A DNA stretch of 64,000 nt from contig JACGZH010000005.1 in assembly GCA_014706385.1 (NCBI GenBank), forward strand, positions 1,794,313 through 1,858,312. Direction: 5' to 3'. Source of the DNA: Phaffia rhodozyma. Its lineage: Eukaryota > Basidiomycota > Tremellomycetes > Cystofilobasidiales > Mrakiaceae. The translations under genes and the position numbers were made by a program. The number at the start of each line of letters is the position of its first letter. Position 1 is the first letter of the stretch. This document shows positions 31,417 through 45,747 of this stretch, piece after piece. The notes below the pieces were generated by a model. That model saw nothing but the letters and a program-made list of their open reading frames with translations, ran no database searches and was not told the DNA's origin.

Positions 31417-31498
31417 TGAACAGAGGGGGATTCGAACCCCCGCATCTTGCGATATCAGAACTTGAGTCTGACGCCTTAGACCGCTCGGCCATCTGTCC
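31417..31498 (-). tRNA. tRNA-Leu-CAA: tRNA-Leu(CAA)
   Basis: Acceptor GGACAGA/TCTGTTC, D-arm GCCGAGCGGTCTAAGGC, anticodon stem TCAGA/TCTGA with loop CTCAAGT, variable arm TATCGCAAGATGC, T-arm GGGGG-TTCGAAT-CCCCC, discriminator A. No intron, although Leu(CAA) genes of many eukaryotes have one. Confidence 0.96.
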
Positions 31499-31585
31499 GG
31501 ATGGGGTGCGTGAGGTGTGTGTGGGTGCGGGAGTGTGCGGGAGTGTGGGCGGGGTAGAGCGAGTGCACCCTGCCCGGGCACACAC

Positions 31586-31671
31586 GCCCCGTTGGCAGAA
31601 TGGTAACGCGTCTCCTTCCTACTGTCTGGTGAGAGAGGTGAAGATTCTGGGTTCAATCCCCAGGCGGGGTT
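31586..31671 (+). tRNA. tRNA-Arg-CCT: tRNA-Arg(CCT), intron-containing
   Basis: Acceptor GCCCCGT/GCGGGGT, loop TTCCTA then an intron of about 14 nt, anticodon stem TCTCC/GGTGA with one T-T mismatch, T-arm CTGGG-TTCAATC-CCCAG. Discriminator T, shared with the two other Arg genes in the unit. Confidence 0.93.
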
Positions 31672-31846
31672 TCTCTTTTTTTGCGGCGGGCGTGGTTGGG
31701 GTGTGAGTGGGGTGTGGTTGGGGTGTGAGTGGGGTGTGAGTGAGAATGTGGGTGTACACGTGAGACGCTTGGTATGCTGGCGGGCTGTAGAGTGTGGACT
31801 GTATGCGCAGGGTATAGGACTGATGTATGTGGACCCTCCCATCAAG

Positions 31847-31918
31847 GGGATGTTCGTATAATGGTTATTATTCCAGATTTCCATTCTGGAGACAGGTGTT
31901 CGATTCACCTACATCTCA
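31847..31918 (+). tRNA. tRNA-Gly-TCC: tRNA-Gly(TCC)
   Basis: Acceptor GGGATGT/ACATCTC, D-arm GTATAATGGTTATTAT, anticodon stem CCAGA/TCTGG with loop TTTCCAT, T-arm AGGTG-TTCGATT-CACCT, discriminator A. No intron. Confidence 0.95.
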
Positions 31919-32086
31919 TTTTTGTCATTTTTTTTTTGTGCGCGTGGCGGGGGCGGAGGCGGTGGCAGTACAAGACACTGTGCGGACGGCGGCAAGACTC
32001 TGAGGCACACGACCGGGGCGTGGGAGGGGCTAGTTGGGTGGCGGCGTTGGTGTCTAGGGGTACGGGCCGGGCTGGGGACTATAACC

Positions 32087-32180
32087 GCCCTGTTAGCTCA
32101 ATCGGTAGAGCGTCAGACTCTTACCCAGTCTCTTGACAGTTGGCATCTGAAGGCTGGGGGTTCGACCCCCCCATGGGGCT
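32087..32180 (+). tRNA. tRNA-Lys-CTT: tRNA-Lys(CTT), intron-containing
   Basis: Acceptor GCCCTGT/ATGGGGC, D-arm GCTCAATCGGTAGAGC, anticodon stem TCAGA/TCTGA, loop CTCTTA followed by an intron of about 21 nt, T-arm GGGGG-TTCGACC-CCCCC, discriminator T. Confidence 0.96.
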
Positions 32181-32398
32181 AGCTTCGTTTTTGTGTGTCG
32201 GTGTGATTTTTTGTTTCTGTTTCTGTTTCTGTTTTCGTTCTTTGTGTTTTTGTTTGCTGGCTTGGTGTGCGCTTGGTGGGCCGTCGACGGTGGAAGGGTG
32301 CATGGAGGGTTGAACAGAGGTGAGAGGTGGGTCGGCTGGTGGGTCGCGCGGGCATGTCTGACGATCTGGGCTGGCAGCACGGACAGACAGACACACAC

Positions 32399-32471
32399 GG
32401 GGATTTAGCTCAGTTGGCAGAGCGCAATCTTAGCATGGTTGAGGTCGTGAGTTCGATTCTTACAATCTCCA
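32399..32471 (+). tRNA. tRNA-Ala-AGC: tRNA-Ala(AGC)
   Basis: Acceptor GGGGATT/AATCTCC, D-arm GCTCAGTTGGCAGAGC, anticodon stem CAATC/GGTTG with loop TTAGCAT, T-arm GTGAG-TTCGATT-CTTAC, discriminator A. No intron. A T-run follows. Confidence 0.96.
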
Positions 32472-32675
32472 CTTTTTTGTGTCGTTTTTTTTGTGTTTTT
32501 TGGTAGTCTTTTTTTTTTTTTTTCCGCCCGCTGCCTTTTCTTGCACTCTCTTCTTTCGCTCTGCTCCTCTCGGTCATGCTCCGTCCTGCCCACCACATCA
32601 CACACCATGTGTTGCACCGAGACAGGCCGGCTGCTGCGAGCACACTGGCCGACCGGCCGGACAGGCCTTCATCCA

Positions 32676-32768
32676 GGTGAGGTGGCCGAGTGGTCTAAGG
32701 CGCTGTGTTAAGGCTCTTTCTATGCCCCGCAGTCAGTAATGGCGCGAGTTCGAATCTCGCCCTCATCA
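32676..32768 (+). tRNA. tRNA-Leu-AAG: tRNA-Leu(AAG), intron-containing
   Basis: Acceptor GGTGAGG/CCTCATC, D-arm GCCGAGTGGTCTAAGGC, anticodon stem CTGTG/CGCAG, loop TTAAGG then an intron of about 13 nt, long variable arm, T-arm GCGAG-TTCGAAT-CTCGC, discriminator A. Close relative of the Leu(TAG) gene at 33486. Confidence 0.95.
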
Positions 32769-32939
32769 CTTTTTGTCCGGCCGGCACGGGCCGTGCCTCT
32801 CGGGTCTGCCTGGCCGGGCTGTGCTCTCAGGTGCGGTGCCATGGTAGTATGATGCCACGTTGCAACACTGCCACACCCCCTTGCTGTCTGCCGGTCCGTT
32901 TTGGACTGTGGACTGAATGAACAGACCGTACAGCATCCA

Positions 32940-33010
32940 ACAGCTGTGGTGAAATGGTATCATTGGTGCTTGCCATGCACTAGGCCGGGGTTCGATTCCC
33001 CGCGGTTGTA
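32940..33010 (+). tRNA. tRNA-Gly-GCC: tRNA-Gly(GCC)
   Basis: Acceptor ACAGCTG/CGGTTGT, D-arm GTGAAATGGTATCAT, anticodon stem GGTGC/GCACT with loop TTGCCAT, T-arm CGGGG-TTCGATT-CCCCG, discriminator A. The first pair is A-T rather than the usual G-C. Confidence 0.93.
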
Positions 33011-33201
33011 TCCTTTTTTTTTCTCGTCCCACACACCGATCGGCTCTGTGCTGGCGGGTGCACATCTGCCGATCGTCCGTGTTCGGTCTCGCCGGCTGGT
33101 GCGATGATGGTGTGTGCTGCCGTTCGGACGAGCAGTGCGTCTGTGCCGACACAGGGGCAGGACACGAAGGACGTACCGACGCGCTCGGTGGACACCAACC
33201 G

Positions 33202-33274
33202 TCCTTCTTAGCTCAGTTGGTAGAGCGCGACACTAGTAATGTCGAGGTCAGTCGTTCAAATCGGCTAGCAGGAA
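33202..33274 (+). tRNA. tRNA-Thr-AGT: tRNA-Thr(AGT)
   Basis: Acceptor TCCTTCT/AGCAGGA with one mismatch at the fifth pair, D-arm GCTCAGTTGGTAGAGC, anticodon stem CGACA/TGTCG with loop CTAGTAA, T-arm AGTCG-TTCAAAT-CGGCT, discriminator A. No intron. Confidence 0.93.
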
Positions 33275-33485
33275 CATTCTTCTTTTTTTTTTATTCTCCG
33301 TTCATTTCCGTTCATTTCTTCTTCTTCTTTTTCTGTTGTATCCTTCCCTGTCGTCCCGGCGGGCGTCTGGTCGACGCGTGCTCGTTAGGGTTCCGCACAA
33401 AGCAAGCACCACACCACACCACACACCACAAACGACACCACAAACAACACCACAAACAACACCACAAACGCAGGGAAAGCATGCT

Positions 33486-33584
33486 GGTGAAGTGGCCGAG
33501 TGGTCTAAGGCGCTGTGTTTAGGTCTCTCTTCCGAGTCCAGACCGCAGTCAGTAATGGCGCGAGTTCAAATCTCGTCTTCATCA
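33486..33584 (+). tRNA. tRNA-Leu-TAG: tRNA-Leu(TAG), intron-containing
   Basis: Acceptor GGTGAAG/CTTCATC, anticodon stem CTGTG/CGCAG, loop TTTAGG then an intron of about 19 nt, variable arm as in Leu(AAG), T-loop TTCAAAT, discriminator A. Body nearly identical to the Leu(AAG) gene at 32676, so probably a duplicate with a changed anticodon. Confidence 0.95.
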
Positions 33585-33618
33585 TTCCTTTTGTCCCGGC
33601 CGGGGGGGCAGGGCAGCT

Positions 33619-33700
33619 GGGGATTTAGGCTAGTTGGTAAACTGGACGCTTCGCACTGTCGATCATGTGTCATTCCTGGGTTCGATTCCCGGAGTCTCCA
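33619..33700 (+). tRNA. tRNA-Ala-CGC: tRNA-Ala(CGC), intron-containing, odd D-arm
   Basis: Acceptor GGGGATT/AGTCTCC as in Ala(AGC), anticodon stem GACGC/GTGTC, loop TTCGCA then an intron of about 10 nt, T-arm CTGGG-TTCGATT-CCCGG, discriminator A. The D region GGCTAGTTGGTAAACTG does not form the normal 4-bp stem; alternative pairing AGTT/AACT is possible. It could be a weakened gene. Confidence 0.82.
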
Positions 33701-33869
33701 TCTCTTTTTGGTGTGTTTCGGTGTGTTTTGTTTTATCTTGGCGTATTTGATTTCGTTGCATTTCATATGGCATGTTGTGTGTCGTGTTGTGTGTCGTGTT
33801 CTGTGTGTCTTCTCTTGGTCTGCTGCCCACCGGCTTGTCCTCACCGCTCACCGAGCGGCGTCCATCCAA

Positions 33870-33979
33870 GGCCGTTTGGCGGAGTGGTCTAACGCGGTAG
33901 CCTCGAACGAGTCCCCTCTGTGGGACGACGCGACAGCTACTCTTCTCTGAAGGCGTAGGTTCAAATCCTACAGCGGTCG
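33870..33979 (+). tRNA. tRNA-Ser-CGA: tRNA-Ser(CGA), intron-containing
   Basis: Acceptor GGCCGTT/AGCGGTC, D-arm GCGGAGTGGTCTAACGC, anticodon stem GTAGC/GCTAC, loop CTCGAA then an intron of about 27 nt, long variable arm TCTTCTCTGAAGGC, T-arm GTAGG-TTCAAAT-CCTAC, discriminator G. Confidence 0.96.
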
Positions 33980-34121
33980 TCCTTTCTCTTTTTCTTTTTG
34001 CCCACTTCCGTTCTCTCTGCCTTCTGTCGCGTCGATCCTTCCTTGCTGTCTGTGTTTGCTGTCTCCGCATGCTCACACCCCGCCAGGCAGACAGACAGAC
34101 GGGCTGACGGGCTGCCATCGT

Positions 34122-34215
34122 GCGTGATTGGTGTAGTGGTATCACGCCAAGTTTGGGCACACTTTCTGCCGTGCACATCTCTTGGAGGTCTTCGGTTCAA
34201 TCCCGGAATCGCGCC
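34122..34215 (+). tRNA. tRNA-Pro-TGG: tRNA-Pro(TGG), intron-containing
   Basis: Acceptor GCGTGAT/ATCGCGC, D-arm GTGTAGTGGTATCAC, anticodon stem CCAAG/CTTGG, loop TTTGGG then an intron of about 22 nt, T-arm TTCGG-TTCAATC-CCGGA, discriminator C. Sister of the Pro genes at 35313 and 38084. Confidence 0.95.
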
Positions 34216-34663
34216 TTTTTGTTCGGCCCGTCTGGGCGGGTGGCGTGGTCGGTGTAGGGTTACTTGCTGTGTCAGTTGCTGTGTTACTTGCTGTGCTACT
34301 CATAGGATTACCCGCCACATAGCGTCCGCTGTTACCCTATGCTGTGTACTCTTTTTTTTTTTCTTTTTTCTTTTTCCTCTCCCGTTTTTTCTTTGTCCTC
34401 TTTTTTCCTCTTTTTTCCCTTCTTTTTTCCCTTCTTTTCCCTCTTTTCCCTTTTTCTTCTTTTTTCTTCTTTTTTTTCTGTCAACGATAGATGCATCAAT
34501 ATAGAAAGAGAAAAAGACATATGGCAGAAAGACAACAGCATAACAATGGCAACACAGTAAAAACATAGCGAGAACACAACGAGAACACAACGAGAACACA
34601 ACCATGCAATGCAATGCACCAGCAACACAGTGTCAACACAACAGAAAGACCAAAACAAAAGAA
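34216..34663. other. Longest tRNA-free spacer of the unit
   Basis: Contains short ACTTGCTGTG-type repeats (about 34260-34300), then about 150 nt of almost pure pyrimidine (34340-34480), then an A-rich stretch with ACACAACGAGA repeats. Open frames across it are low complexity and not supported as genes. Equivalent spacers are 43899-44346, 53603-54050 and 63286-63732; the pyrimidine tract varies in length in the last. Confidence 0.6.
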
Positions 34664-34819
34664 GGCAAAGATCCTCGTAGTCAGACGCCTTACCGCTGGG
34701 CCACTCGGCCAGAGCGAATGGGTGGTGGGACCACTAGACCAAGACGGGGTTCGAACCCGCGATTTCCTGATGCATACAAGCTGGCAGCCGGCCATGACGA
34801 CCGTTCCACCATCTTTGCC
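34664..34819 (-). tRNA. tRNA-Arg-ACG: Circularly permuted tRNA-Arg(ACG) gene
   Basis: On the minus strand the 3' half comes first (34771 down to 34736: A38, TCAGG, AAATC, T-arm GCGGG-TTCGAAC-CCCGT, acceptor strand CTTGGTC, discriminator T). A 25-nt linker (34735-34711) follows, then the 5' half (34710 down to 34675: acceptor strand GGCCGAG, TG, D-arm GCCCAGCGGTAAGGC, G, TCTGA, loop start CTACGA). Rejoined, acceptor pairs 7/7 (two G-T), anticodon stem TCTGA/TCAGG 5/5 (one T-G), anticodon ACG. The outer leader GGCAAAGAT (34819-34811) is perfectly complementary to the trailer ATCTTTGCC (34672-34664). There is no T-arm downstream of the 5' half, so it is not a conventional gene. T73 agrees with the other Arg genes of the unit. 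Maturation would need end-joining by the splicing machinery and cutting of the linker. Alternative: two unrelated tRNA fragments. Confidence 0.83.
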
Positions 34820-35004
34820 TTTAGCTTTCGTCTGGTTGTGTGGATGTATGGCCAAGTGGATGTGTGGGCGTTGGCTCTGCTAGGGTTATCCGAGGCGGTG
34901 GGCGTCCGGCCGATCCGTCCGATCGCCCATCGGATATCGGACGTCGGACGTCGGACGTCGAGCCCCGGAGTACGGAGCCCGGCGGAGAAAAGGCCGTGTC
35001 GATC

Positions 35005-35088
35005 GGTCGCCTGGTCTAGTGGTATGACGCTTGCTTCACATCTCACCCGGTGCGCAATAGGTCGCCAGTTCGATCCTGGCGGTGACCA
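35005..35088 (+). tRNA. tRNA-Val-CAC: tRNA-Val(CAC), intron-containing
   Basis: Acceptor GGTCGCC/GGTGACC, D-arm GTCTAGTGGTATGAC, anticodon stem CTTGC/GCAAT with the outer pair unpaired, loop TTCACA then an intron of about 12 nt, T-arm GCCAG-TTCGATC-CTGGC, discriminator A. Confidence 0.92.
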
Positions 35089-35312
35089 TGACGTCTTTTT
35101 GCCCTCAGCACACGGCCACGATGGACAGACCGAGAGAAGCCATCGCAAGATAAGATGCATGATAAGATACACAGCCAGCCGACAGAGATGGCAGATAAGA
35201 TCGACAGACACGATCGATCGGCAAGAAAGAAAGAAAGAAGATAAGATGGCGATAAAGACAAAAGACAAAAGACAAAAGATACAAGATAAAAGCCAGGTCG
35301 GCAAAAAGACAA

Positions 35313-35412
35313 GGCGCGATCCCGGGATTGAACCGAGGACCTCCGTCAGACACGTGTTTCATGCGAGCCAGCAAAGCCCGAAGACGGCGTGATACCACTA
35401 CACCAATCCCGC
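35313..35412 (-). tRNA. tRNA-Pro-CGG: tRNA-Pro(CGG), intron-containing
   Basis: Acceptor GCGGGAT/ATCGCGC with one G-G mismatch, anticodon stem CCGTC/GACGG, loop TTCGGG then an intron of about 28 nt, T-arm CTCGG-TTCAATC-CCGGG, discriminator C. The mismatch is in all three full units. Confidence 0.94.
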
Positions 35413-35490
35413 CAGTGATCGCACAGGCCTGGCCGGTCAGTTTGTCGGTCTCCAGCCGGCCGTCCGTCCGTCCGTCCGGGAGGCAAAAGA

Positions 35491-35588
35491 TACTCCATAT
35501 GAGGTTCGAACTCATGATCCTTGTTAAGCACTAGAGGCACGGACGGCAACCTATAAGAACAATGCGATAACCACTTCGCCAATGGAGT
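35491..35588 (-). tRNA. tRNA-Ile-TAT: tRNA-Ile(TAT), intron-containing
   Basis: Acceptor ACTCCAT/ATGGAGT, D-arm GCGAAGTGGTTATCGC, anticodon stem TTGTT/AACAA, loop CTTATA then an intron of about 25 nt, T-arm ATGAG-TTCGAAC-CTCAT, discriminator A. Ile(TAT) carries an intron in most eukaryotes. Confidence 0.96.
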
Positions 35589-35771
35589 AAAGGTAAGCGT
35601 CGGTGGAAAAAGACGAGACATGACAAGACAGGACGAGACAGGACGAGACAGGACGAGACAGGACGAGAGAAGGCCGCACCGGACGGCACACGCCAGACCG
35701 GGCCGAGTCCGACAGAAGACGGCACAGGCGGCAGGAGGGAGGACGGGAAAAAGAGGGCGAAAAAAAAGGAA

Positions 35772-35854
35772 AGGTCCTACTCAGATTCGAACTGGGGATT
35801 CGAGAAGGTGAGTCAATCAGAATCTCGCGTGATAACCAACTTCACCATAGAACC
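35772..35854 (-). tRNA. tRNA-Gln-CTG: tRNA-Gln(CTG), intron-containing
   Basis: Acceptor GGTTCTA/TAGGACC, D-arm GTGAAGTTGGTTATCAC, anticodon stem CGAGA/TCTCG, loop TTCTGA then an intron of about 10 nt, T-arm CCCAG-TTCGAAT-CTGAG with one C-A mismatch, discriminator T. Confidence 0.95.
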
Positions 35855-36064
35855 GGTCGTTGTCGGCCTATTGCCCTCGCGAGTCTCGTTCTGGCGGTGT
35901 GTCCGCTGGCAAGGGTCCGTCGGCGCGTGTCCGCTGGCAGGTGTGCTTACATCGCTGGCCGACCTGTCCGCCCGCCGCACGTGGCCCGGCCGGCATGACA
36001 CGCACGGCCGACCCGATACACACGGCCGACCCGATACACACAGCGGACATCGGAGCAAAAAGCA

Positions 36065-36137
36065 AGCCCAAACGCGGATTTGAACCACGGACCTCACCGT
36101 TACGAGCGGCGCACTATAACCACTTAGCTATTCGGGC
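36065..36137 (-). tRNA. tRNA-Thr-CGT: tRNA-Thr(CGT)
   Basis: Acceptor GCCCGAA/TTTGGGC, anticodon stem CGCCG/CGGTG with loop CTCGTAA, T-arm CGTGG-TTCAAAT-CCGCG, discriminator T. No intron. Confidence 0.95.
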
Positions 36138-36288
36138 CTGGTGCCCGTCGCCCGGTCGTGTTGTCTCTAAGGGTGTTGGTGTGTCGATGTGTTGGTGTAC
36201 CGGTGTGGTCAGGACCCGGCCCACACCGTCCGCTCGGCCAGACGTAGCCCATCGAGGTCGACCGCCGGGGCGGCTGGGCAGTCAACGT

Positions 36289-36375
36289 GCCTGGGTAGTT
36301 TAGTGGTAAAACGTAGGTCTCATACCGTCACCCGAGTGTGATCCTCAGCCGCGAGTTCGATTCTCGCTCTGGGCA
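36289..36375 (+). tRNA. tRNA-Met-CAT: tRNA-Met(CAT), elongator-like, intron-containing
   Basis: Acceptor GCCTGGG/TCTGGGC, D-arm GTTTAGTGGTAAAAC, loop CTCATA then an insert of about 15 nt, T-arm GCGAG-TTCGATT-CTCGC, discriminator A. The anticodon stem TAGGT pairs only about three of five positions with ATCCT. The elongator role is inferred because the initiator is the 37474 gene. Confidence 0.75.
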
Positions 36376-36608
36376 ACTCTTTTTTTTCCTCTTTTGCTGT
36401 GTTTCCCATCCTTCCTGATGGTTGGTGGGCGGCCGGGCTGGGCCAGGCGGAGGTGCGGTCGGATCCGGCCGTCAGATGGGCTGAGCATGACGGCAGTGGA
36501 AGTGGCGGTGGCGGTGGCGTCGGCAGTGCTGATGACGACGACGACTGCTGCTGCGCAGAGTCCGCTTGGACGAGAATCTATCCGGACAAACGGTGCTGGC
36601 ACCATACC

Positions 36609-36695
36609 CGCCGCTTAGCTCATCTGGAAGAGCGTTGGTTTGTAAAGGATACACTTGTTCACCGAAGGCACTCGGTTCGATCCCGAGAGCGGCGA
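36609..36695 (+). tRNA. tRNA-Tyr-GTA: tRNA-Tyr(GTA), intron-containing
   Basis: Acceptor CGCCGCT/AGCGGCG with the C1-G72 pair typical of eukaryotic Tyr, D-arm GCTCATCTGGAAGAGC, anticodon stem TTGGT/ACCGA, loop TTGTAA then an intron of about 14 nt, T-arm CTCGG-TTCGATC-CCGAG, discriminator A. Confidence 0.96.
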
Positions 36696-36917
36696 TCTTG
36701 TTTTTTTGCCTTTTGCTTTTTGTTCTTTTTTGTTCTTTTTTTTCTGCCTTGTGGCTGCTTCCTCTTTGACTGCTAGGGTTCCTGCCTTCGGTCCAGTCCG
36801 GTCGCTCTCACGCGGCATGCGCACTGTCTCGGCCAGACGGGCGATGCGACCGATGACGTTCTCCCAGCTGCTGCTGCCGATGTAGTGGTCACCGGGGCAG
36901 GGCAAGCGATCATATCT

Positions 36918-37016
36918 GGCCGATTGGTGTAGTGGCTATCACAGCAGTTTTCGGTACTCGTCCGCAAGGTCGTCTTCGCTCGCTGCTGGTCGTCGGTTCG
37001 ATCCCGACATCGGTCT
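36918..37016 (+). tRNA. tRNA-Arg-TCG: tRNA-Arg(TCG), intron-containing
   Basis: Acceptor GGCCGAT/ATCGGTC, D-arm GTGTAGTGGCTATCAC, A26, anticodon stem GCAGT/GCTGC, loop TTTCGG then an intron of about 26 nt, variable TGGTC, T-arm GTCGG-TTCGATC-CCGAC, discriminator T. A one-base register shift would read TTC (Glu), but then base 26 is lost; T73 also fits Arg. Confidence 0.87.
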
Positions 37017-37242
37017 AAATGTTCACTTTTTGTGTCCCCCTTTCTTTTTTGCCCTCTTTTTTGCCCTCCTTTTTGCCCTTCTTTTTCTCTGCACGCTCTC
37101 TCTGCACTCTGTTTCTATCGGCCGTTGTGTGGGTCACTGTCTGTCCGACCGGTCTGGCCTGTGTGCGCGTGTCCACCACGGTCGAGCCAGGTCGACACAG
37201 TTCCCTGTGGTGGGGCAGGCAGACGGGCGGGAAAACAAAAAA

Positions 37243-37316
37243 AGACCCATACCCGACTTGAACGGATGACCTCAAGATTTGGAATCTTGCGCTGCTACCA
37301 ACTGAGCTAATGGGTC
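37243..37316 (-). tRNA. tRNA-Trp-CCA: tRNA-Trp(CCA)
   Basis: Acceptor GACCCAT/ATGGGTC, anticodon stem CAAGA/TCTTG with loop TTCCAAA, T-arm ATCCG-TTCAAGT-CGGGT, discriminator T. No intron, although Trp genes of many fungi have one. The A-run just outside its 3' end is one base shorter in unit 2. Confidence 0.96.
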
Positions 37317-37473
37317 GCTTGCCCGGGGCCTCCGTGCCCAGAGGGTATGTCGAGCGCCCGGCTGGCTGGCCGTACAGACGGTGGCACCATGCGGCCGGCT
37401 TGCAGGCCTCCAGCACGGACGGCCGGACGGGGGCCAGGGAAAAAACCGAGGGAAAACGAGCAAAAAGACAATG

Positions 37474-37545
37474 TTGCCAAGGCCCGTCTCGATCAGGCGA
37501 CCTCCGGGTTATGAGCCCGGCGCGCTTCCACTGCGCTACTTGGCA
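37474..37545 (-). tRNA. tRNA-iMet-CAT: Initiator tRNA-Met(CAT)
   Basis: Initiator marks: T-loop ATCGAGA instead of TTCGANN, three G-C pairs at the foot of the anticodon stem (CCGGG/CCCGG) with loop CTCATAA, and D-arm GCGCAGTGGAAGCGC. Acceptor TGCCAAG/CTTGGCA gives T1-A72 where most eukaryotic initiators have A1-T72. Discriminator A. No intron. Confidence 0.95.
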
Positions 37546-37753
37546 TTGATGGGAGACCATGGCTGAGGAGTGTGTATGTGGTGTCGGCCGCAGGTCACGT
37601 GCCGGTGTCGATGTCAGTGTCGACGTCAGTGTCGATGCCAGTGCCAGCACCAGTGTCATTACCAATGCCAGTGTCAATGCCAGTCACACCATCGACTGGT
37701 GCGACCGACGGTACACCTGGCCATGGTCTGCCGGGTGGGCCTGACAGTCATCG

Positions 37754-37827
37754 GATCGATTAGCTCAGTTGGTTAGAGCGTGGTGCTAATAACGCCAAGG
37801 TCGCGGGTTCGACCCCCTCATTGATCA
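37754..37827 (+). tRNA. tRNA-Ile-AAT: tRNA-Ile(AAT)
   Basis: Acceptor GATCGAT/ATTGATC, D-arm GCTCAGTTGGTTAGAGC, anticodon stem TGGTG/CGCCA with loop CTAATAA, T-arm GCGGG-TTCGACC-CCCTC with one C-T mismatch, discriminator A. No intron. Confidence 0.95.
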
Positions 37828-38083
37828 CTTTTTCTTTCTTTTTCTAATTTTCGCCATCTTTTTTTGCCATCTTTTTTGCACCCCTCCTGTTCTCGACCGT
37901 TGCGGTCTGTGTGGCATTGTTGTCGACTGGCACGCTCCATGGTGAGCGATGCAGTGTTGTGACGGTGTGACGATGTGGTGGTGCGGTGGCGACGATGGGA
38001 ACGCAGATATACACCCGGCTGTGCTGGACAGTGTCCGACCAGACATGGGCCTATGGTGTCTGGGCTGGGCTGGGAGGCATCGT

Positions 38084-38170
38084 GCATGCTTGGTGTAGTG
38101 GTATCGCGCCATGTTAGGGTCTTTGCGCCTTGTCTCATGGAGGTCCTCAGTTCAATCCTGGGAGCGTGCC
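38084..38170 (+). tRNA. tRNA-Pro-AGG: tRNA-Pro(AGG), intron-containing
   Basis: Acceptor GCATGCT/AGCGTGC, D-arm GTGTAGTGGTATCGC, anticodon stem CCATG/CATGG, loop TTAGGG then an intron of about 15 nt, T-arm CTCAG-TTCAATC-CTGGG, discriminator C. Confidence 0.95.
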
Positions 38171-38379
38171 TTTTTTCCTTTTCCTTTCGTTCTTTGTTTC
38201 CTTTTCCCGAGCGCTTCCTGTCGCTCTTCGTTGTTTTCTGCCACTTTTCACTCACTTTTTGCCACTCTCCGCCACTTTCTCGGCAGCAGACAAGCGATGT
38301 GTGCACCCGGTGGAGACGTCTCTGACGCATGGACAAGCTGTCTGGACAAGGTGTCTGGACACGGATGACAGCCATCAAG

Positions 38380-38451
38380 TCCTCAATTGTCTAACGGCTA
38401 TGATAACCGCCTCTCACGCGGTAGGCCCGGGTTCGACTCCCGGTTGGGGAT
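38380..38451 (+). tRNA. tRNA-Glu-CTC: tRNA-Glu(CTC)
   Basis: Acceptor TCCTCAA/TTGGGGA, anticodon stem ACCGC/GCGGT with loop CTCTCAC, T-arm CCGGG-TTCGACT-CCCGG, discriminator T. No intron. Confidence 0.96.
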
Positions 38452-38689
38452 CTCTCTTTTGGTCTTTTCTTTTGCTCTCGTTTCTTTTTTTCTTTTTTTC
38501 TTTTTTTCCTTGTCCTTCTTTCCTTTCGTCTTTCTGTTTCGTCTTGTTTTTGTATGTCCGTTCTGACCACTGGTATCAGCGCTGGTGTGTGCCTGCGGGT
38601 ACTGTGTGGTTGAATGCACGGTATGGGGTGCATGCACCGGCCAGCTGTCCAGCCACCTGGCGAGCGGACGAGGTTGACATCCAACCGAC

Positions 38690-38761
38690 TCTTGGATGGT
38701 CTAACGGTTATGATTTCCGCCTGTCACGCGGGAGACCGGGGTTCGACTCCCCGTCCGGGAG
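38690..38761 (+). tRNA. tRNA-Asp-GTC: tRNA-Asp(GTC)
   Basis: Acceptor TCTTGGA/TCCGGGA, D-arm GTCTAACGGTTATGAT, anticodon stem TCCGC/GCGGG with loop CTGTCAC, T-arm CGGGG-TTCGACT-CCCCG, discriminator G. No intron. Confidence 0.96.
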
Positions 38762-39148
38762 CACTTTTTGCCTTTTGCTCCTCTCTTTTGTACTTGCATT
38801 TGTACTTGCATTTGTACTTGCATTTGCATTTGCATTTGCATTTGCATCTGTTCTTTCCATTCTCTTTTGCTGTACAGCTGTATGGTTGTCTTGCTTTGTT
38901 GTGTTTGTCCGTCGACGGCCATCGATCGTTATCTTTTTTTCTTTGGTCTGTATGTCTCCTTCTTTTTCTCTTTCTTTTTCTTTTGCTCTCTTTGACGGCG
39001 CATGTTTGGCAGCACACGCTCCGAAAGACGCACCGAGCACAGCACAGCACAGCACAGCACGCCGACACGTGTGCGCTGGGCAGACCAACTGGCTGGATGG
39101 CTGTTGAGCACAGGCTATGGGCAGTCGATCGGCAGACCGAGACCATAC
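38762..39148. other. Spacer with GCATTT and AGCAC repeats
   Basis: No gene. It holds a GTACTTGCATTT / GCATTT microsatellite (about 38800-38850), a CT-rich tract and an AGCAC repeat (about 39038-39060). The open frames seen through it encode repetitive peptides only. Equivalents lie at 48450-48836 and 58149-58535. Confidence 0.55.
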
Positions 39149-39231
39149 GCTGTCTTAATCAAGTGGTCTACGATGAGAGATTAGAAATCTCTTCCTCTTT
39201 GAGGGCGCAGGTTCGAATCCTGCAGACAGCT
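39149..39231 (+). tRNA. tRNA-Ser-AGA: tRNA-Ser(AGA)
   Basis: Acceptor GCTGTCT/AGACAGC, anticodon stem AGAGA/TCTCT with loop TTAGAAA, long variable arm TCCTCTTTGAGGGC, T-arm GCAGG-TTCGAAT-CCTGC. Discriminator T, unlike the G of the Ser(CGA) gene. No intron. Confidence 0.94.
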
Positions 39232-39449
39232 TTCTTTTGCACCCTGTACTTTGCCACCGTGGCCTTTGCTCTTTTTGCTTTTTTTTTTCTTCTTCTTCTC
39301 TTCTGTGCCTTTGCCTATGTGTGTCTATGGTTGTCGTTCATGTATGCATAGTACGCACACACCGGGCAGCCAGCCCCCAAAAAAAAAGACGGCCACACCA
39401 TCGAAGCCATCCTCACTGACACACAGAGCGAGGACCGGAAAAAAAGGGA

Positions 39450-39535
39450 TGCCGTCAGCCTGAATCGAACAGGCGACCTTATGATTGCGGACAGATGTCT
39501 TCAGTCATACGCTCCACCAATTGAGCTATGACGGC
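39450..39535 (-). tRNA. tRNA-Phe-GAA: tRNA-Phe(GAA), intron-containing
   Basis: Acceptor GCCGTCA/TGACGGC, D-arm GCTCAATTGGTGGAGC, anticodon stem TATGA/TCATA, loop CTGAAG then an intron of about 13 nt, T-arm GCCTG-TTCGATT-CAGGC, discriminator A. Confidence 0.96.
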
Positions 39536-39730
39536 CGGTGACAGTCAGCGCCGTCCATCAGGCCATGGCCCGTCTGGGTGGCTGTCGGGCCGTCGGACCA
39601 CTCAGCTGGCACTCACTCGGTCGGTCTCAGCCGGGTCGGTGTGTGTGCTGACGCGGCAGGCAAAACATGCTGGGCACTGACCGTCAGCGTGTGCTCTCTG
39701 AGTGCTCGGACACAGCAGGCGACCATCCCA

Positions 39731-39803
39731 TGCCCTGTAGCTCAGTTGGTAGAGCGTGGAGCTGTTAACTCCAAGGTCTACGGTTCGAGCCCGTACGGGG
39801 CAG
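39731..39803 (+). tRNA. tRNA-Asn-GTT: tRNA-Asn(GTT)
   Basis: Acceptor TGCCCTG/CGGGGCA, anticodon stem TGGAG/CTCCA with loop CTGTTAA, T-arm TACGG-TTCGAGC-CCGTA, discriminator G. No intron. Directly followed by the TTTTTGTCGTC minisatellite. Confidence 0.96.
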
Positions 39804-39868
39804 TCTTTTTGTCGTCTTTTTGTCGTCTTTTTGTCGTCTTTTTGTCGTCTTTTTGTCGTCTTTTTGTC
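39804..39868 (+). repeat. 11-bp minisatellite (TTTTTGTCGTC)n
   Basis: About 5.7 copies here and in unit 3 (59191-59255), one copy more in unit 2 (49492-49567). Its first T-runs probably also serve as the terminator of tRNA-Asn. Confidence 0.9.
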
Positions 39869-40010
39869 TCCTCATTTTTTTTCCCTCTCCCTTTCCTGTG
39901 CAGTACTTCCCCTCTCGTCTTCTGCCGTCCATGAGGTGTGCGTGTTCTTGGTATGTTCTTGCGATGGACATCATCCATCTTCCACCAGCATGCTCGGCCG
40001 GCAAGAAAAA

Positions 40011-40083
40011 AGGAGTCACCCGGGATTGAACCAGGGACCTGCTGGGTTGCAACCAGCCGCAACTACCGCTGTGCTATAACTCC
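40011..40083 (-). tRNA. tRNA-Cys-GCA: tRNA-Cys(GCA)
   Basis: Acceptor GGAGTTA/TGACTCC, D-arm GCACAGCGGTAGTTGC, anticodon stem GCTGG/CCAGC with loop TTGCAAC, T-arm CCTGG-TTCAATC-CCGGG, discriminator T. No intron. Confidence 0.96.
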
Positions 40084-40377
40084 GTATGAGGCTGCCGCGC
40101 CATCGGACAGATCATCCACAGGCACGCTTGCACACATGCACACAGCACAGTGGCAGCCGCTTTGTCGTCCTGCGATCGAGTAGTGGCAGCTGTGGACGCA
40201 ACATCGCCCGGTGCGACCAGGCCGGCGTCACAGATGCTGCATCTGCACAGAGAAAACAAAAGGAACAAAGGAGCAGAAAAAAGAACAGGAAAAAAGAACA
40301 AGAAAAAAGAGCAAGAAAAAAGAGCAAGAAAAAAGAGCAAGAAAAAAGAGCAAAAAGAACAAAAAGAACAAAAAGAG

Positions 40378-40449
40378 TAGTCGCACCCAGAGTCGAACTG
40401 GGGTCGTGAGTGTGTTAGACTCAAGTGATAACCGTTACACCATGCAACT
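40378..40449 (-). tRNA. tRNA-Val-AAC: tRNA-Val(AAC)
   Basis: Acceptor AGTTGCA/TGCGACT, D-arm GTGTAACGGTTATCAC, anticodon stem TGAGT/ACTCA with loop CTAACAC, T-arm CCCAG-TTCGACT-CTGGG, discriminator A. No intron. Its 3' flank is a (GAAAAAAGAGCAA)-type purine repeat. Confidence 0.96.
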
Positions 40450-40640
40450 CTGATGACTGCCGCTGTCTGCCCAGTATCCTACTCATCGACCAGGCACCGC
40501 TCGCTCCGCCGTCTGCCCGCCCGCCGCTGTGTGTCCATCGGTCGGCCGGCCCATCAGCCCGATCGTGCGACACCGGGACCATGCCTGCCGACAAGCTGGC
40601 CCTCAGACGAGGCAGCCCGGGGAGAAAACAAAAAGGATCG

Positions 40641-40713
40641 TTCCCCATCCGGGAGTCGAACCCGGGTCCTCAGCGTGAAAAGCTGATATCGTAAACCGTT
40701 TGACCAATGAGGA
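40641..40713 (-). tRNA. tRNA-Glu-TTC: tRNA-Glu(TTC)
   Basis: Acceptor TCCTCAT/ATGGGGA, anticodon stem TCAGC/GCTGA with loop TTTTCAC, T-arm CCGGG-TTCGACT-CCCGG, discriminator A. No intron. Related in body to Glu(CTC) at 38380. Confidence 0.96.
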
Positions 40714-40853
40714 CTAGTACAAGCACGCCGAATCGGTCGACTCGTCTGCAGTCGTCTGCAGTCGTGCGCAGTCGTGTGCAGCCTGCTCCGTCGTGCGGTA
40801 GGCTGTGAGCGGGTGGCCGCCGGTCAGCATGCTTCCGACCGGACGGCAAAAAG

Positions 40854-40925
40854 TGGACCCAGCAGGGATTGAACCCGCGGCCTTTCGCATGCAAAGCGAA
40901 TGTGATACCACTACACCATAAGCCC
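40854..40925 (-). tRNA. tRNA-Ala-TGC: tRNA-Ala(TGC)
   Basis: Acceptor GGGCTTA/TGGGTCC, D-arm GTGTAGTGGTATCAC, anticodon stem TTCGC/GCGAA with loop TTTGCAT, T-arm GCGGG-TTCAATC-CCTGC, discriminator A. No intron. The third acceptor pair is G-T, whereas the Ala synthetase marker G3-T70 is also met in Ala(AGC) and Ala(CGC). Confidence 0.95.
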
Positions 40926-40965
40926 GTGTGGGATGGAGGCGTGGTGTGTCGGTCGGTGGGGCGAA

Positions 40966-41027
40966 GTGCGGTGCGGTGCGGTGAGGTGCGGTGCGGTGCG
41001 GTGAGGTGAGGTGCGGCGAGGTGAGGT
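40966..41027 (+). repeat. GCGGT/GAGGT minisatellite at unit junction
   Basis: Pentamer repeat directly before the start of units 2, 3 and 4 (40966-41027, 50665-50731, 60353-60414). The copy before unit 3 has one extra pentamer. It is absent before unit 1. Confidence 0.85.
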
Positions 41028-41099
41028 CTGGTATGATGCTATCAGAAACAGAGTCTTGGTTGCAAAACCACACGGAATCTCTCGGCAGGGGGCAAAAGA

Positions 41100-41181
41100 T
41101 GAACAGAGGGGGATTCGAACCCCCGCATCTTGCGATATCAGAACTTGAGTCTGACGCCTTAGACCGCTCGGCCATCTGTCC
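41100..41181 (-). tRNA. tRNA-Leu-CAA: tRNA-Leu(CAA), unit 2
   Basis: Unit 2 copy of the gene at 31417-31498; no change seen. Confidence 0.95.
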
Positions 41182-41268
41182 GGATGGGGTGCGTGAGGTG
41201 TGTGTGGGTGCGGGAGTGTGCGGGAGTGTGGGCGGGGTAGAGCGAGTGCACCCTGCCCGGGCACACAC

Positions 41269-41354
41269 GCCCCGTTGGCAGAATGGTAACGCGTCTCCTT
41301 CCTACTGTCTGGTGAGAGAGGTGAAGATTCTGGGTTCAATCCCCAGGCGGGGTT
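41269..41354 (+). tRNA. tRNA-Arg-CCT: tRNA-Arg(CCT), unit 2
   Basis: Unit 2 copy of 31586-31671, intron retained. Confidence 0.92.
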
Positions 41355-41529
41355 TCTCTTTTTTTGCGGCGGGCGTGGTTGGGGTGTGAGTGGGGTGTGG
41401 TTGGGGTGTGAGTGGGGTGTGAGTGAGAATGTGGGTGTACACGTGAGACGCTTGGTATGCTGGCGGGCTGTAGAGTGTGGACTGTATGCGCAGGGTATAG
41501 GACTGATGTATGTGGACCCTCCCATCAAG

Positions 41530-41601
41530 GGGATGTTCGTATAATGGTTATTATTCCAGATTTCCATTCTGGAGACAGGTGTTCGATTCACCTACATCTC
41601 A
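41530..41601 (+). tRNA. tRNA-Gly-TCC: tRNA-Gly(TCC), unit 2
   Basis: Unit 2 copy of 31847-31918. Confidence 0.95.
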
Positions 41602-41769
41602 TTTTTGTCATTTTTTTTTTGTGCGCGTGGCGGGGGCGGAGGCGGTGGCAGTACAAGACACTGTGCGGACGGCGGCAAGACTCTGAGGCACACGACCGGG
41701 GCGTGGGAGGGGCTAGTTGGGTGGCGGCGTTGGTGTCTAGGGGTACGGGCCGGGCTGGGGACTATAACC

Positions 41770-41863
41770 GCCCTGTTAGCTCAATCGGTAGAGCGTCAGA
41801 CTCTTACCCAGTCTCTTGACAGTTGGCATCTGAAGGCTGGGGGTTCGACCCCCCCATGGGGCT
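41770..41863 (+). tRNA. tRNA-Lys-CTT: tRNA-Lys(CTT), unit 2
   Basis: Unit 2 copy of 32087-32180, intron retained. Confidence 0.95.
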
Positions 41864-42081
41864 AGCTTCGTTTTTGTGTGTCGGTGTGATTTTTTGTTTC
41901 TGTTTCTGTTTCTGTTTTCGTTCTTTGTGTTTTTGTTTGCTGGCTTGGTGTGCGCTTGGTGGGCCGTCGACGGTGGAAGGGTGCATGGAGGGTTGAACAG
42001 AGGTGAGAGGTGGGTCGGCTGGTGGGTCGCGCGGGCATGTCTGACGATCTGGGCTGGCAGCACGGACAGACAGACACACAC

Positions 42082-42154
42082 GGGGATTTAGCTCAGTTGG
42101 CAGAGCGCAATCTTAGCATGGTTGAGGTCGTGAGTTCGATTCTTACAATCTCCA
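42082..42154 (+). tRNA. tRNA-Ala-AGC: tRNA-Ala(AGC), unit 2
   Basis: Unit 2 copy of 32399-32471. Confidence 0.95.
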
Positions 42155-42358
42155 CTTTTTTGTGTCGTTTTTTTTGTGTTTTTTGGTAGTCTTTTTTTTT
42201 TTTTTTCCGCCCGCTGCCTTTTCTTGCACTCTCTTCTTTCGCTCTGCTCCTCTCGGTCATGCTCCGTCCTGCCCACCACATCACACACCATGTGTTGCAC
42301 CGAGACAGGCCGGCTGCTGCGAGCACACTGGCCGACCGGCCGGACAGGCCTTCATCCA

Positions 42359-42451
42359 GGTGAGGTGGCCGAGTGGTCTAAGGCGCTGTGTTAAGGCTCT
42401 TTCTATGCCCCGCAGTCAGTAATGGCGCGAGTTCGAATCTCGCCCTCATCA
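42359..42451 (+). tRNA. tRNA-Leu-AAG: tRNA-Leu(AAG), unit 2
   Basis: Unit 2 copy of 32676-32768, intron retained. Confidence 0.95.
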
Positions 42452-42622
42452 CTTTTTGTCCGGCCGGCACGGGCCGTGCCTCTCGGGTCTGCCTGGCCGG
42501 GCTGTGCTCTCAGGTGCGGTGCCATGGTAGTATGATGCCACGTTGCAACACTGCCACACCCCCTTGCTGTCTGCCGGTCCGTTTTGGACTGTGGACTGAA
42601 TGAACAGACCGTACAGCATCCA

Positions 42623-42693
42623 ACAGCTGTGGTGAAATGGTATCATTGGTGCTTGCCATGCACTAGGCCGGGGTTCGATTCCCCGCGGTTGTA
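42623..42693 (+). tRNA. tRNA-Gly-GCC: tRNA-Gly(GCC), unit 2
   Basis: Unit 2 copy of 32940-33010. Confidence 0.93.
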
Positions 42694-42884
42694 TCCTTTT
42701 TTTTTCTCGTCCCACACACCGATCGGCTCTGTGCTGGCGGGTGCACATCTGCCGATCGTCCGTGTTCGGTCTCGCCGGCTGGTGCGATGATGGTGTGTGC
42801 TGCCGTTCGGACGAGCAGTGCGTCTGTGCCGACACAGGGGCAGGACACGAAGGACGTACCGACGCGCTCGGTGGACACCAACCG

Positions 42885-42957
42885 TCCTTCTTAGCTCAGT
42901 TGGTAGAGCGCGACACTAGTAATGTCGAGGTCAGTCGTTCAAATCGGCTAGCAGGAA
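42885..42957 (+). tRNA. tRNA-Thr-AGT: tRNA-Thr(AGT), unit 2
   Basis: Unit 2 copy of 33202-33274, including the acceptor mismatch. Confidence 0.93.
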
Positions 42958-43168
42958 CATTCTTCTTTTTTTTTTATTCTCCGTTCATTTCCGTTCATTT
43001 CTTCTTCTTCTTTTTCTGTTGTATCCTTCCCTGTCGTCCCGGCGGGCGTCTGGTCGACGCGTGCTCGTTAGGGTTCCGCACAAAGCAAGCACCACACCAC
43101 ACCACACACCACAAACGACACCACAAACAACACCACAAACAACACCACAAACGCAGGGAAAGCATGCT

Positions 43169-43267
43169 GGTGAAGTGGCCGAGTGGTCTAAGGCGCTGTG
43201 TTTAGGTCTCTCTTCCGAGTCCAGACCGCAGTCAGTAATGGCGCGAGTTCAAATCTCGTCTTCATCA
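43169..43267 (+). tRNA. tRNA-Leu-TAG: tRNA-Leu(TAG), unit 2
   Basis: Unit 2 copy of 33486-33584, intron retained. Confidence 0.95.
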
Positions 43268-43301
43268 TTCCTTTTGTCCCGGCCGGGGGGGCAGGGCAGC
43301 T

Positions 43302-43383
43302 GGGGATTTAGGCTAGTTGGTAAACTGGACGCTTCGCACTGTCGATCATGTGTCATTCCTGGGTTCGATTCCCGGAGTCTCCA
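43302..43383 (+). tRNA. tRNA-Ala-CGC: tRNA-Ala(CGC), unit 2
   Basis: Unit 2 copy of 33619-33700, with the same odd D-arm. Confidence 0.82.
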
Positions 43384-43552
43384 TCTCTTTTTGGTGTGTT
43401 TCGGTGTGTTTTGTTTTATCTTGGCGTATTTGATTTCGTTGCATTTCATATGGCATGTTGTGTGTCGTGTTGTGTGTCGTGTTCTGTGTGTCTTCTCTTG
43501 GTCTGCTGCCCACCGGCTTGTCCTCACCGCTCACCGAGCGGCGTCCATCCAA

Positions 43553-43662
43553 GGCCGTTTGGCGGAGTGGTCTAACGCGGTAGCCTCGAACGAGTCCCCT
43601 CTGTGGGACGACGCGACAGCTACTCTTCTCTGAAGGCGTAGGTTCAAATCCTACAGCGGTCG
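43553..43662 (+). tRNA. tRNA-Ser-CGA: tRNA-Ser(CGA), unit 2
   Basis: Unit 2 copy of 33870-33979, intron retained. Confidence 0.95.
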
Positions 43663-43804
43663 TCCTTTCTCTTTTTCTTTTTGCCCACTTCCGTTCTCTC
43701 TGCCTTCTGTCGCGTCGATCCTTCCTTGCTGTCTGTGTTTGCTGTCTCCGCATGCTCACACCCCGCCAGGCAGACAGACAGACGGGCTGACGGGCTGCCA
43801 TCGT

Positions 43805-43898
43805 GCGTGATTGGTGTAGTGGTATCACGCCAAGTTTGGGCACACTTTCTGCCGTGCACATCTCTTGGAGGTCTTCGGTTCAATCCCGGAATCGCGCC
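43805..43898 (+). tRNA. tRNA-Pro-TGG: tRNA-Pro(TGG), unit 2
   Basis: Unit 2 copy of 34122-34215, intron retained. Confidence 0.95.
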
Positions 43899-44346
43899 TT
43901 TTTGTTCGGCCCGTCTGGGCGGGTGGCGTGGTCGGTGTAGGGTTACTTGCTGTGTCAGTTGCTGTGTTACTTGCTGTGCTACTCATAGGATTACCCGCCA
44001 CATAGCGTCCGCTGTTACCCTATGCTGTGTACTCTTTTTTTTTTTCTTTTTTCTTTTTCCTCTCCCGTTTTTTCTTTGTCCTCTTTTTTCCTCTTTTTTC
44101 CCTTCTTTTTTCCCTTCTTTTCCCTCTTTTCCCTTTTTCTTCTTTTTTCTTCTTTTTTTTCTGTCAACGATAGATGCATCAATATAGAAAGAGAAAAAGA
44201 CATATGGCAGAAAGACAACAGCATAACAATGGCAACACAGTAAAAACATAGCGAGAACACAACGAGAACACAACGAGAACACAACCATGCAATGCAATGC
44301 ACCAGCAACACAGTGTCAACACAACAGAAAGACCAAAACAAAAGAA

Positions 44347-44502
44347 GGCAAAGATCCTCGTAGTCAGACGCCTTACCGCTGGGCCACTCGGCCAGAGCGA
44401 ATGGGTGGTGGGACCACTAGACCAAGACGGGGTTCGAACCCGCGATTTCCTGATGCATACAAGCTGGCAGCCGGCCATGACGACCGTTCCACCATCTTTG
44501 CC
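44347..44502 (-). tRNA. tRNA-Arg-ACG: Permuted tRNA-Arg(ACG), unit 2
   Basis: Unit 2 copy of 34664-34819. The 3' half is 44419-44454, the linker 44394-44418 and the 5' half 44358-44393; no change seen in halves, linker or leader/trailer helix. Confidence 0.82.
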
Positions 44503-44687
44503 TTTAGCTTTCGTCTGGTTGTGTGGATGTATGGCCAAGTGGATGTGTGGGCGTTGGCTCTGCTAGGGTTATCCGAGGCGGTGGGCGTCCGGCCGATCCG
44601 TCCGATCGCCCATCGGATATCGGACGTCGGACGTCGGACGTCGAGCCCCGGAGTACGGAGCCCGGCGGAGAAAAGGCCGTGTCGATC

Positions 44688-44771
44688 GGTCGCCTGGTCT
44701 AGTGGTATGACGCTTGCTTCACATCTCACCCGGTGCGCAATAGGTCGCCAGTTCGATCCTGGCGGTGACCA
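44688..44771 (+). tRNA. tRNA-Val-CAC: tRNA-Val(CAC), unit 2
   Basis: Unit 2 copy of 35005-35088, intron retained. Confidence 0.92.
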
Positions 44772-44995
44772 TGACGTCTTTTTGCCCTCAGCACACGGCC
44801 ACGATGGACAGACCGAGAGAAGCCATCGCAAGATAAGATGCATGATAAGATACACAGCCAGCCGACAGAGATGGCAGATAAGATCGACAGACACGATCGA
44901 TCGGCAAGAAAGAAAGAAAGAAGATAAGATGGCGATAAAGACAAAAGACAAAAGACAAAAGATACAAGATAAAAGCCAGGTCGGCAAAAAGACAA

Positions 44996-45095
44996 GGCGC
45001 GATCCCGGGATTGAACCGAGGACCTCCGTCAGACACGTGTTTCATGCGAGCCAGCAAAGCCCGAAGACGGCGTGATACCACTACACCAATCCCGC
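44996..45095 (-). tRNA. tRNA-Pro-CGG: tRNA-Pro(CGG), unit 2
   Basis: Unit 2 copy of 35313-35412, intron and acceptor G-G mismatch retained. Confidence 0.94.
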
Positions 45096-45173
45096 CAGTG
45101 ATCGCACAGGCCTGGCCGGTCAGTTTGTCGGTCTCCAGCCGGCCGTCCGTCCGTCCGTCCGGGAGGCAAAAGA

Positions 45174-45271
45174 TACTCCATATGAGGTTCGAACTCATGA
45201 TCCTTGTTAAGCACTAGAGGCACGGACGGCAACCTATAAGAACAATGCGATAACCACTTCGCCAATGGAGT
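45174..45271 (-). tRNA. tRNA-Ile-TAT: tRNA-Ile(TAT), unit 2
   Basis: Unit 2 copy of 35491-35588, intron retained. Confidence 0.95.
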
Positions 45272-45454
45272 AAAGGTAAGCGTCGGTGGAAAAAGACGAG
45301 ACATGACAAGACAGGACGAGACAGGACGAGACAGGACGAGACAGGACGAGAGAAGGCCGCACCGGACGGCACACGCCAGACCGGGCCGAGTCCGACAGAA
45401 GACGGCACAGGCGGCAGGAGGGAGGACGGGAAAAAGAGGGCGAAAAAAAAGGAA

Positions 45455-45537
45455 AGGTCCTACTCAGATTCGAACTGGGGATTCGAGAAGGTGAGTCAAT
45501 CAGAATCTCGCGTGATAACCAACTTCACCATAGAACC
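45455..45537 (-). tRNA. tRNA-Gln-CTG: tRNA-Gln(CTG), unit 2
   Basis: Unit 2 copy of 35772-35854, intron retained. Confidence 0.95.
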
Positions 45538-45747
45538 GGTCGTTGTCGGCCTATTGCCCTCGCGAGTCTCGTTCTGGCGGTGTGTCCGCTGGCAAGGGTC
45601 CGTCGGCGCGTGTCCGCTGGCAGGTGTGCTTACATCGCTGGCCGACCTGTCCGCCCGCCGCACGTGGCCCGGCCGGCATGACACGCACGGCCGACCCGAT
45701 ACACACGGCCGACCCGATACACACAGCGGACATCGGAGCAAAAAGCA

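Follow-up and report, generated by a model that had tools for sequence, protein, structure and literature searches.

The window analyzed here is a 64,000-nt stretch of the genome of the basidiomycete Phaffia rhodozyma that runs to the end of its contig (C10), and its minus strand carries the two halves of a tRNA-Arg(ACG) gene in swapped order. Read from 34821 to 34662, the element consists of a leader arm (AAGGCAAAGAT), 39 nt of leader, the 3' half of the tRNA, a 25-nt linker, the 5' half, a GG dinucleotide, and a trailer arm (ATCTTTGCCTT); direct reading confirmed the exchanged halves and the 25-nt spacer described in the original prediction. We consider it highly probable that the element functions as a nuclear tRNA-Arg(ACG) gene in circularly permuted form, of type II (with its junction between positions 37 and 38), and as far as the assembly shows it would be the cell's only source of this tRNA. 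It is apparently the first permuted tRNA gene to be described in a fungus.

Anatomy of the permuted gene

When the two halves are rejoined, the resulting 72 nt are called tRNA-Arg(ACG) by ARAGORN with all four arms, which bears out the full cloverleaf that had been proposed. The acceptor stem is paired at 7/7 positions (two G.U), the anticodon stem at 5/5 (one G.U), and the T stem at 5/5 (one G.U), for a total of four G.U pairs; the D stem of the joined tRNA consists of three pairs, and the other stems are full. Position 73 is a U, as it is in the aligned Arg(TCT) genes of the P. rhodozyma genome. The 5' half ends with A37 (34675) and the 3' half opens with A38 (34771), the exact cut being placed on the basis of a 7-nt anticodon loop. 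As had been noted, a T arm is missing downstream of the 5' half, and the sole B-box-like site outside the ARAGORN tRNAs in the surrounding array unit (see below) is that of the 3' half. The perfect complementarity claimed for the flanks also stands, with GGCAAAGAT (34819-34811) pairing with ATCTTTGCC (34672-34664), but the true length of the helix is 11 bp and not 9 bp. In its unjoined form, the locus is reported neither by ARAGORN nor by Rfam at the gathering score.

A scan for permuted tRNAs that required, in permuted order, a T arm, a 7/7 acceptor stem, U8, a D stem, GG, a 5/5 anticodon stem, and U33 gave four strict matches in the window, corresponding to four array copies of the gene (Table 1), versus none in 150 dinucleotide-preserving shuffles of the same 64 kb. 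With one mismatch permitted in three stems, the window again gave four matches and the 150 shuffles gave five. A looser scan (variable loop of 3 to 23 nt, linker of up to 400 nt) added one plus-strand match in the window, which is chance-like, and gave no matches at 20 other loci (58,170 bases). The perfect 11-bp pairing of leader and trailer was attained by 2 of 3,000 shuffles.

Table 1. Features of the permuted tRNA-Arg(ACG) gene and its surroundings, in window positions
Feature	Position	Strand	Basis
Putative permuted pre-tRNA core, leader helix to trailer helix	34662..34821	-	11-bp terminal complementarity; inner 156 nt (34819-34664) identical in 39/43 copies
CATCCA, possible transcription start region	34841..34846	-	Sequence and motif position (inference)
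Leader arm of 11-bp terminal helix, AAGGCAAAGAT	34811..34821	-	Complementarity, fold
Leader A-box match, TGGTGGAACGG	34801..34811	-	Pattern match, 54 nt ahead of B box
Leader CTTGTA, predicted partner of anticodon-loop TACGAG (34679-34674)	34775..34780	-	Constrained fold
tRNA-Arg(ACG) 3' half, positions 38-73: T arm, 3' acceptor strand, U73	34736..34771	-	Sequence, ARAGORN
B box in 3' half, GGTTCGAACCC	34747..34757	-	Sequence
25-nt linker between 3' and 5' acceptor-stem ends, without a run of four T	34711..34735	-	Sequence
tRNA-Arg(ACG) 5' half, positions 1-37: D arm, anticodon ACG	34675..34710	-	Sequence, ARAGORN
A box of 5' half, TGGCCCAGCGG	34693..34703	-	Pattern match
Trailer arm of terminal helix, ATCTTTGCCTT	34662..34672	-	Complementarity, fold
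First runs of four T past 5' half, likely Pol III terminator, TTTTGTTTT	34652..34660	-	T-run scan
Permuted gene, array unit 2 (from start of 3' half to end of 5' half)	44358..44454	-	Scanner
Permuted gene, array unit 3	54062..54158	-	Scanner
Permuted gene, array unit 4	63744..63840	-	Scanner
Tandem tRNA array, unit of ~9.7 kb, to contig end; unit 1 = 33 ARAGORN tRNAs and the permuted gene	31417..64000		ARAGORN, sequence
Probable intron-bearing tRNA-Arg(TCG), labeled Glu(ttc) by ARAGORN	36918..37016	+	Hand reading: position 26 = A, stem GCAGT/GCTGC (inference)

Search for a conventional tRNA-Arg(ACG) gene

A conventional Arg(ACG) gene elsewhere in the genome, which had been named beforehand, together with a lack of joined reads, as refuting evidence, was not detected by sequence and pattern searches of the assembly (19.77 Mb in 15 contigs). 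The joined 72-nt tRNA used as a query gave 80 genome matches, in all of which the halves lie in permuted order (40 of 44 candidates scored). Patterns combining the ACG anticodon with a B box gave 91 matches, compared to 18 in a reversed-pattern control, and contained no Arg(ACG) gene as far as they were examined, with 79 of the matches falling in the Ser and Glu genes of the array and 12 elsewhere. Among the latter, the match at C2:1345438 belongs to a Lys(TTT) gene and that at C13:35974 to a Gly(CCC) gene; three are orphan copies resembling a tRNA 3' half (those on C14 and C10 were read, and that at C13:8730 was judged by its identical matched letters); four, at loci L039 and L041-L043, hold no ARAGORN gene; and three (two on C8 and one at C10:950701) were discounted from their matched letters alone. 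Another B-box pattern produced 39 matches versus 62 in its control, none of them Arg-like judging from the matched letters, and a looser anticodon/B-box pattern (157 matches versus 151 in the control) was nondiscriminating. The Rfam search of the genome scored 63 of 2,082 candidates. These searches for a conventional gene are strong, yet they fall short of a complete tRNA survey. No viral contig exactly matched a 29-nt segment of the 5' half.

Copy number and near-invariance within a tandem tRNA array

The permuted gene is part of a tandem tRNA array and occurs once per ~9.7-kb unit, with 43 copies in the assembly distributed over nine contigs. The 5' half has 43 genome matches on these nine contigs, 42 of which are exact, and the 3' half has 41 exact matches, while the two inexact 3' halves differ by one-base insertions or changes (97% identity). 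Across the 156-nt precursor region, 39 of the 43 copies are identical, and a further copy (L017), truncated by the start of its contig, retains both halves exactly. When 28 copies were compared over ~2.6 kb, 23 of 2,444 subwindows of 156 nt lacked a variable column (the median subwindow had 18), and all 23 fell in a single 178-nt stretch (34840-34663) that comprises the element and ~20 nt upstream of it. A smaller comparison found no variable columns in the 156 nt of the element, 34 in the 415 nt lying beyond 60 nt upstream, and 16 in the next 60 nt downstream. Variation between copies consists mostly of indels, part of which are perhaps sequencing errors.

Arrays occupy the right ends of C9, C10, C12, and C13 and the left end of C11, with polarity uniformly toward the contig end, and they also occur in the small contigs C4-C7, so that at least 43 units can be counted by the permuted gene. 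A single unit type, composed of 33 ARAGORN tRNAs and the permuted gene, appears unusual for a fungus. In an Illumina assembly of P. rhodozyma, 49 tRNAs with 12 anticodons were reported (Bellora et al., PMC5103461), a low count that may be explained by the loss of the arrays from short-read assemblies. Searches of the open-access literature, judged by titles and the beginnings of abstracts, listed no report of tRNA arrays in Phaffia or in basidiomycetes.

Codon usage and related tRNA genes

In eukaryotes, the decoding of CGU and CGC needs the inosine form of Arg(ACG). For X. dendrorhous, relative synonymous codon usage has been tabulated as two values per codon, which are 2.83 (2.10) for CGA, 0.30 (0.51) for CGU, and 0.25 (0.29) for CGC (PMC4404019). 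The permuted gene would thus decode two codons, CGU and CGC, that are rare yet in use. Judging from hand reading, the gene at 36918-37016, a probable Arg(TCG), can decode CGA.

Several other intron-bearing tRNAs of the array are apparently misnamed by ARAGORN; hand reading gives Ala(CGC) at 33618-33702 and Phe(GAA) at 39450-39535, with 31586-31671 uncertain. A small dispersed group of tRNA genes at C2:1345438-1346716 (L040) comprises Lys(TTT), which has an 11-nt intron, together with Ala(AGC) and a gene resembling the Arg(TCG) of the array, and this group may be related to the array's source. The orphan sequence resembling a tRNA 3' half, CTACGTAGTTCAGGG.GCGCA.GTTCGAATC, occurs at C14:1186905, C10:15192, C13:8730, and C1:1511387; three copies have identical matched letters and the C1 copy is slightly different, the copies on C14 and C10 adjoin an Arg(TCT) gene, and no 5' half was found near the orphan copies that were scanned. 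A fragment of a protein encoded in the window, assembled from three exons, shows 98% identity along its entire length to the peroxisomal copper amine oxidase of P. rhodozyma, a member of the class Tremellomycetes, and the second-best hit, from Naganishia, reaches 82%.

Predicted folding, promoter, and processing

With the cloverleaf imposed, the remainder of the precursor is predicted to fold into an 11-bp terminal helix, a leader hairpin, and a 6-bp helix joining the anticodon loop to the leader. In this constrained fold, a C32-G pair lies beside the 3' cut and resembles the anticodon-intron (A.I) pair of yeast introns (PMC3978253).

The original prediction held that the B box would be transcribed before the A box. 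The A box of the 5' half does follow the B box, but the leader holds a further A-box match, TGGTGGAACGG, upstream of it, so the claim is incomplete. The leader sequence is a full match to the A-box pattern carried by 28 of the 33 array tRNAs, and its distance from the B box (54 nt) compares with 42 to 81 nt in the 24 array tRNAs in which both boxes were found; the A-box pattern search found no match in the 25-nt linker. According to a review, TFIIIC is poorly suited to A and B boxes in reversed order, and the alga Cyanidioschyzon merolae manages without TFIIIC (PMC3978253). Because of the leader A-box match 54 nt ahead of the B box, a normally ordered RNA polymerase III (Pol III) promoter may exist in Phaffia, and we regard the possible role of this sequence in the promoter as a lead rather than as proof. 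The first runs of four T come at +14 and +19 past the 5' half, and the 80-nt leader, both halves, and the linker are free of such runs. A CATC/CATA motif lies 5 to 12 nt before 18 of the 33 array tRNAs and ~27 nt before the helix at the permuted gene.

Both TFIIIC families searched for, PF04182 and PF09734, have matches in the genome, although PF04182 also matches bacterial controls and is weak alone. The genome further contains a Trl1-like ligase (PF09511, PF08303) and two tRNA_int_endo matches, and a profile search of the genome gave no RtcB match. A Trl1-type ligase together with tRNA_int_endo genes would be enough for the circularization known from algae (PMC3978253).

Transcription and essentiality are proposed, as is the following course of processing, including the editing of A34. 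Pol III would produce a single RNA that runs from the leader through the 3' half, linker, and 5' half to the trailer and would stop at TTTTGTTTT, probably with the leader A box and the 3'-half B box as its promoter. Leader and trailer would then pair in the 11-bp helix, with the open ends acting like an intron that has been opened midway. The tRNA splicing endonuclease would detach leader and trailer by cutting on the 3' side of position 37 and on the 5' side of position 38, and the Trl1-type ligase would seal A37 to A38 and so generate a circle. Excision of the 25-nt linker by RNase P and tRNase Z, CCA addition, and conversion of A34 to inosine would yield the mature tRNA. We do not claim an origin by tandem duplication and loss of the outer halves, as the alignments of leader with 5' half (p of 0.33 to 0.36) and of trailer with 3' half (p of 0.06 to 0.10) did not differ significantly from those of shuffles.

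Evaluation of alternative explanations

The original prediction of a fungal Arg(ACG) gene in circularly permuted form is the reading that best accommodates the cloverleaf, the complementary flanks, the near-invariance, and the absence of a detected conventional gene. We regard as evenly balanced a more far-reaching proposal, namely, that this is the first permuted gene in a fungus and the sole and essential source of tRNA-Arg(ICG), that its leader A box, apparently in register and 8 nt behind an acceptor-like helix, restores the order needed by TFIIIC and Pol III, and that it is present in at least 43 tandem copies.

Several observations weigh against a functional permuted gene or against parts of this proposal. 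Three of the 43 copies (L071, L072, and L073) carry small indels or changes. The 28 copies compared were drawn from a list of exact 28-nt matches, and tandem copies may homogenize by concerted evolution, which would make the invariance weaker than it appears; when substitutions only are counted, the element lies within a clean stretch of 373 nt, but there are further clean stretches of 267, 237, and 236 nt. The arrays reach contig ends, and unseen units could differ. The free fold of the precursor, which is not a cloverleaf, is predicted at -65.1 kcal/mol, versus -55.5 kcal/mol with the cloverleaf, and the joined tRNA has a free fold of -23.1 kcal/mol, versus -20.3 kcal/mol as a cloverleaf. 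The predicted fold places the 5' cut within a helix and so does not form a strict bulge-helix-bulge motif. The leader A-box match (present in 74 of 3,000 shuffled leaders) and the 6-pair helix between leader and anticodon loop (attained by 37 of 3,000 shuffles) are only moderately unlikely by chance, and the distant CATC does not favor a normal start site.

The element might instead be a permuted relic or pseudogene amplified along with the array, in which case the true Arg(ACG) gene would be conventional and either unassembled or missed by the patterns. That the arrays are incomplete at contig ends leaves room for such a gene, as do the partial searches (63 of 2,082 candidates with Rfam, 40 of 44 with the DNA query, and 3 of 12 nonarray sites judged by letters only). 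However, every one of the 43 5' halves in the assembly is either permuted or part of an array copy of the permuted element, identity over 156 nt extends to 39 of the 43 copies, pairing is complete in the acceptor, T, and anticodon stems, and sequence and pattern searches detected no conventional gene, and we consider a relic unlikely. The arrangement of the halves and the complementary flanks would also serve trans-splicing of two separately transcribed half-tRNA genes, and such split tRNAs are known in archaea (PMC3978253). Here, however, only 25 nt, without a run of four T, separate the halves, which share a strand, so that a single transcript is the simpler explanation, and the linker is identical in at least 39 of the 43 copies; joining in trans is thus very unlikely. 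As for an assembly artifact or a chance arrangement, only a single assembly was available and arrays are difficult to assemble, yet order and spacing are constant in 43 copies on nine contigs and 150 shuffles produced no strict match, which makes this explanation extremely improbable.

Comparison with known permuted tRNA genes

We know of no earlier case of permuted tRNA genes outside algae and archaea, and searches of the open-access literature on permuted tRNA genes and fungi, judged by titles and the beginnings of abstracts, listed no fungal case, in line with the lack of a known fungal precedent noted at the outset. A 2014 review lists 34 permuted tRNA genes from unicellular algae and one archaeon, Thermofilum, with linkers of 1 to 74 nt (PMC3978253). 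The closest resemblance is to the type II genes of C. merolae, e.g., Thr(AGT) and Gln(CTG), in which, as in Phaffia, a 3' half, a spacer (7 to 74 nt there), and a 5' half follow each other with a 37/38 junction, a T stretch lies downstream, and complementary sequence surrounds the junction (PMC3978253). C. merolae is a red alga with an upstream TATA-like promoter, in which TFC1 and TFC3 homologues were not found (PMC3978253), whereas in Phaffia both TFIIIC families match and the leader carries an A-box match. The genes also differ in number, with one or two in C. merolae and 43 tandem copies in Phaffia.

The permuted genes of prasinophyte green algae and of the Bigelowiella nucleomorph are nearly all of type II with a 37/38 junction, a relaxed hBH motif, and linkers of 5 to 64 nt (PMC3978253), and these organisms are photosynthetic, unlike Phaffia. 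Arg(ACG) is missing from the algal set of that review, which does have Arg(TCT) from O. tauri and Arg(CCT) from C. merolae (PMC3978253). In the green alga Auxenochlorella, permuted genes were found in 2025 by way of an incomplete tRNAscan-SE set (PMC12636532), and the published tRNA set of Phaffia is likewise incomplete (PMC5103461); a tandem array is not mentioned in the accessible portion of the Auxenochlorella report (PMC12636532). The tRNA genes of Entamoeba also occur in tandem units (PMC2652664), whereas in Phaffia a single type of unit combines 33 ARAGORN tRNAs with the permuted gene.

The silence of ARAGORN and Rfam at the permuted locus indicates that standard tRNA finders overlook such genes. 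If our interpretation of the basidiomycete case is true, the permuted layout arises independently in a lineage with an ordinary SEN endonuclease, a Trl1 ligase, and TFIIIC promoters, and the cell must splice an RNA into a circle to obtain a working tRNA. The transcription of permuted genes, their circularization by fungal enzymes, and the reason for relying on one would thereby become testable in a laboratory organism.
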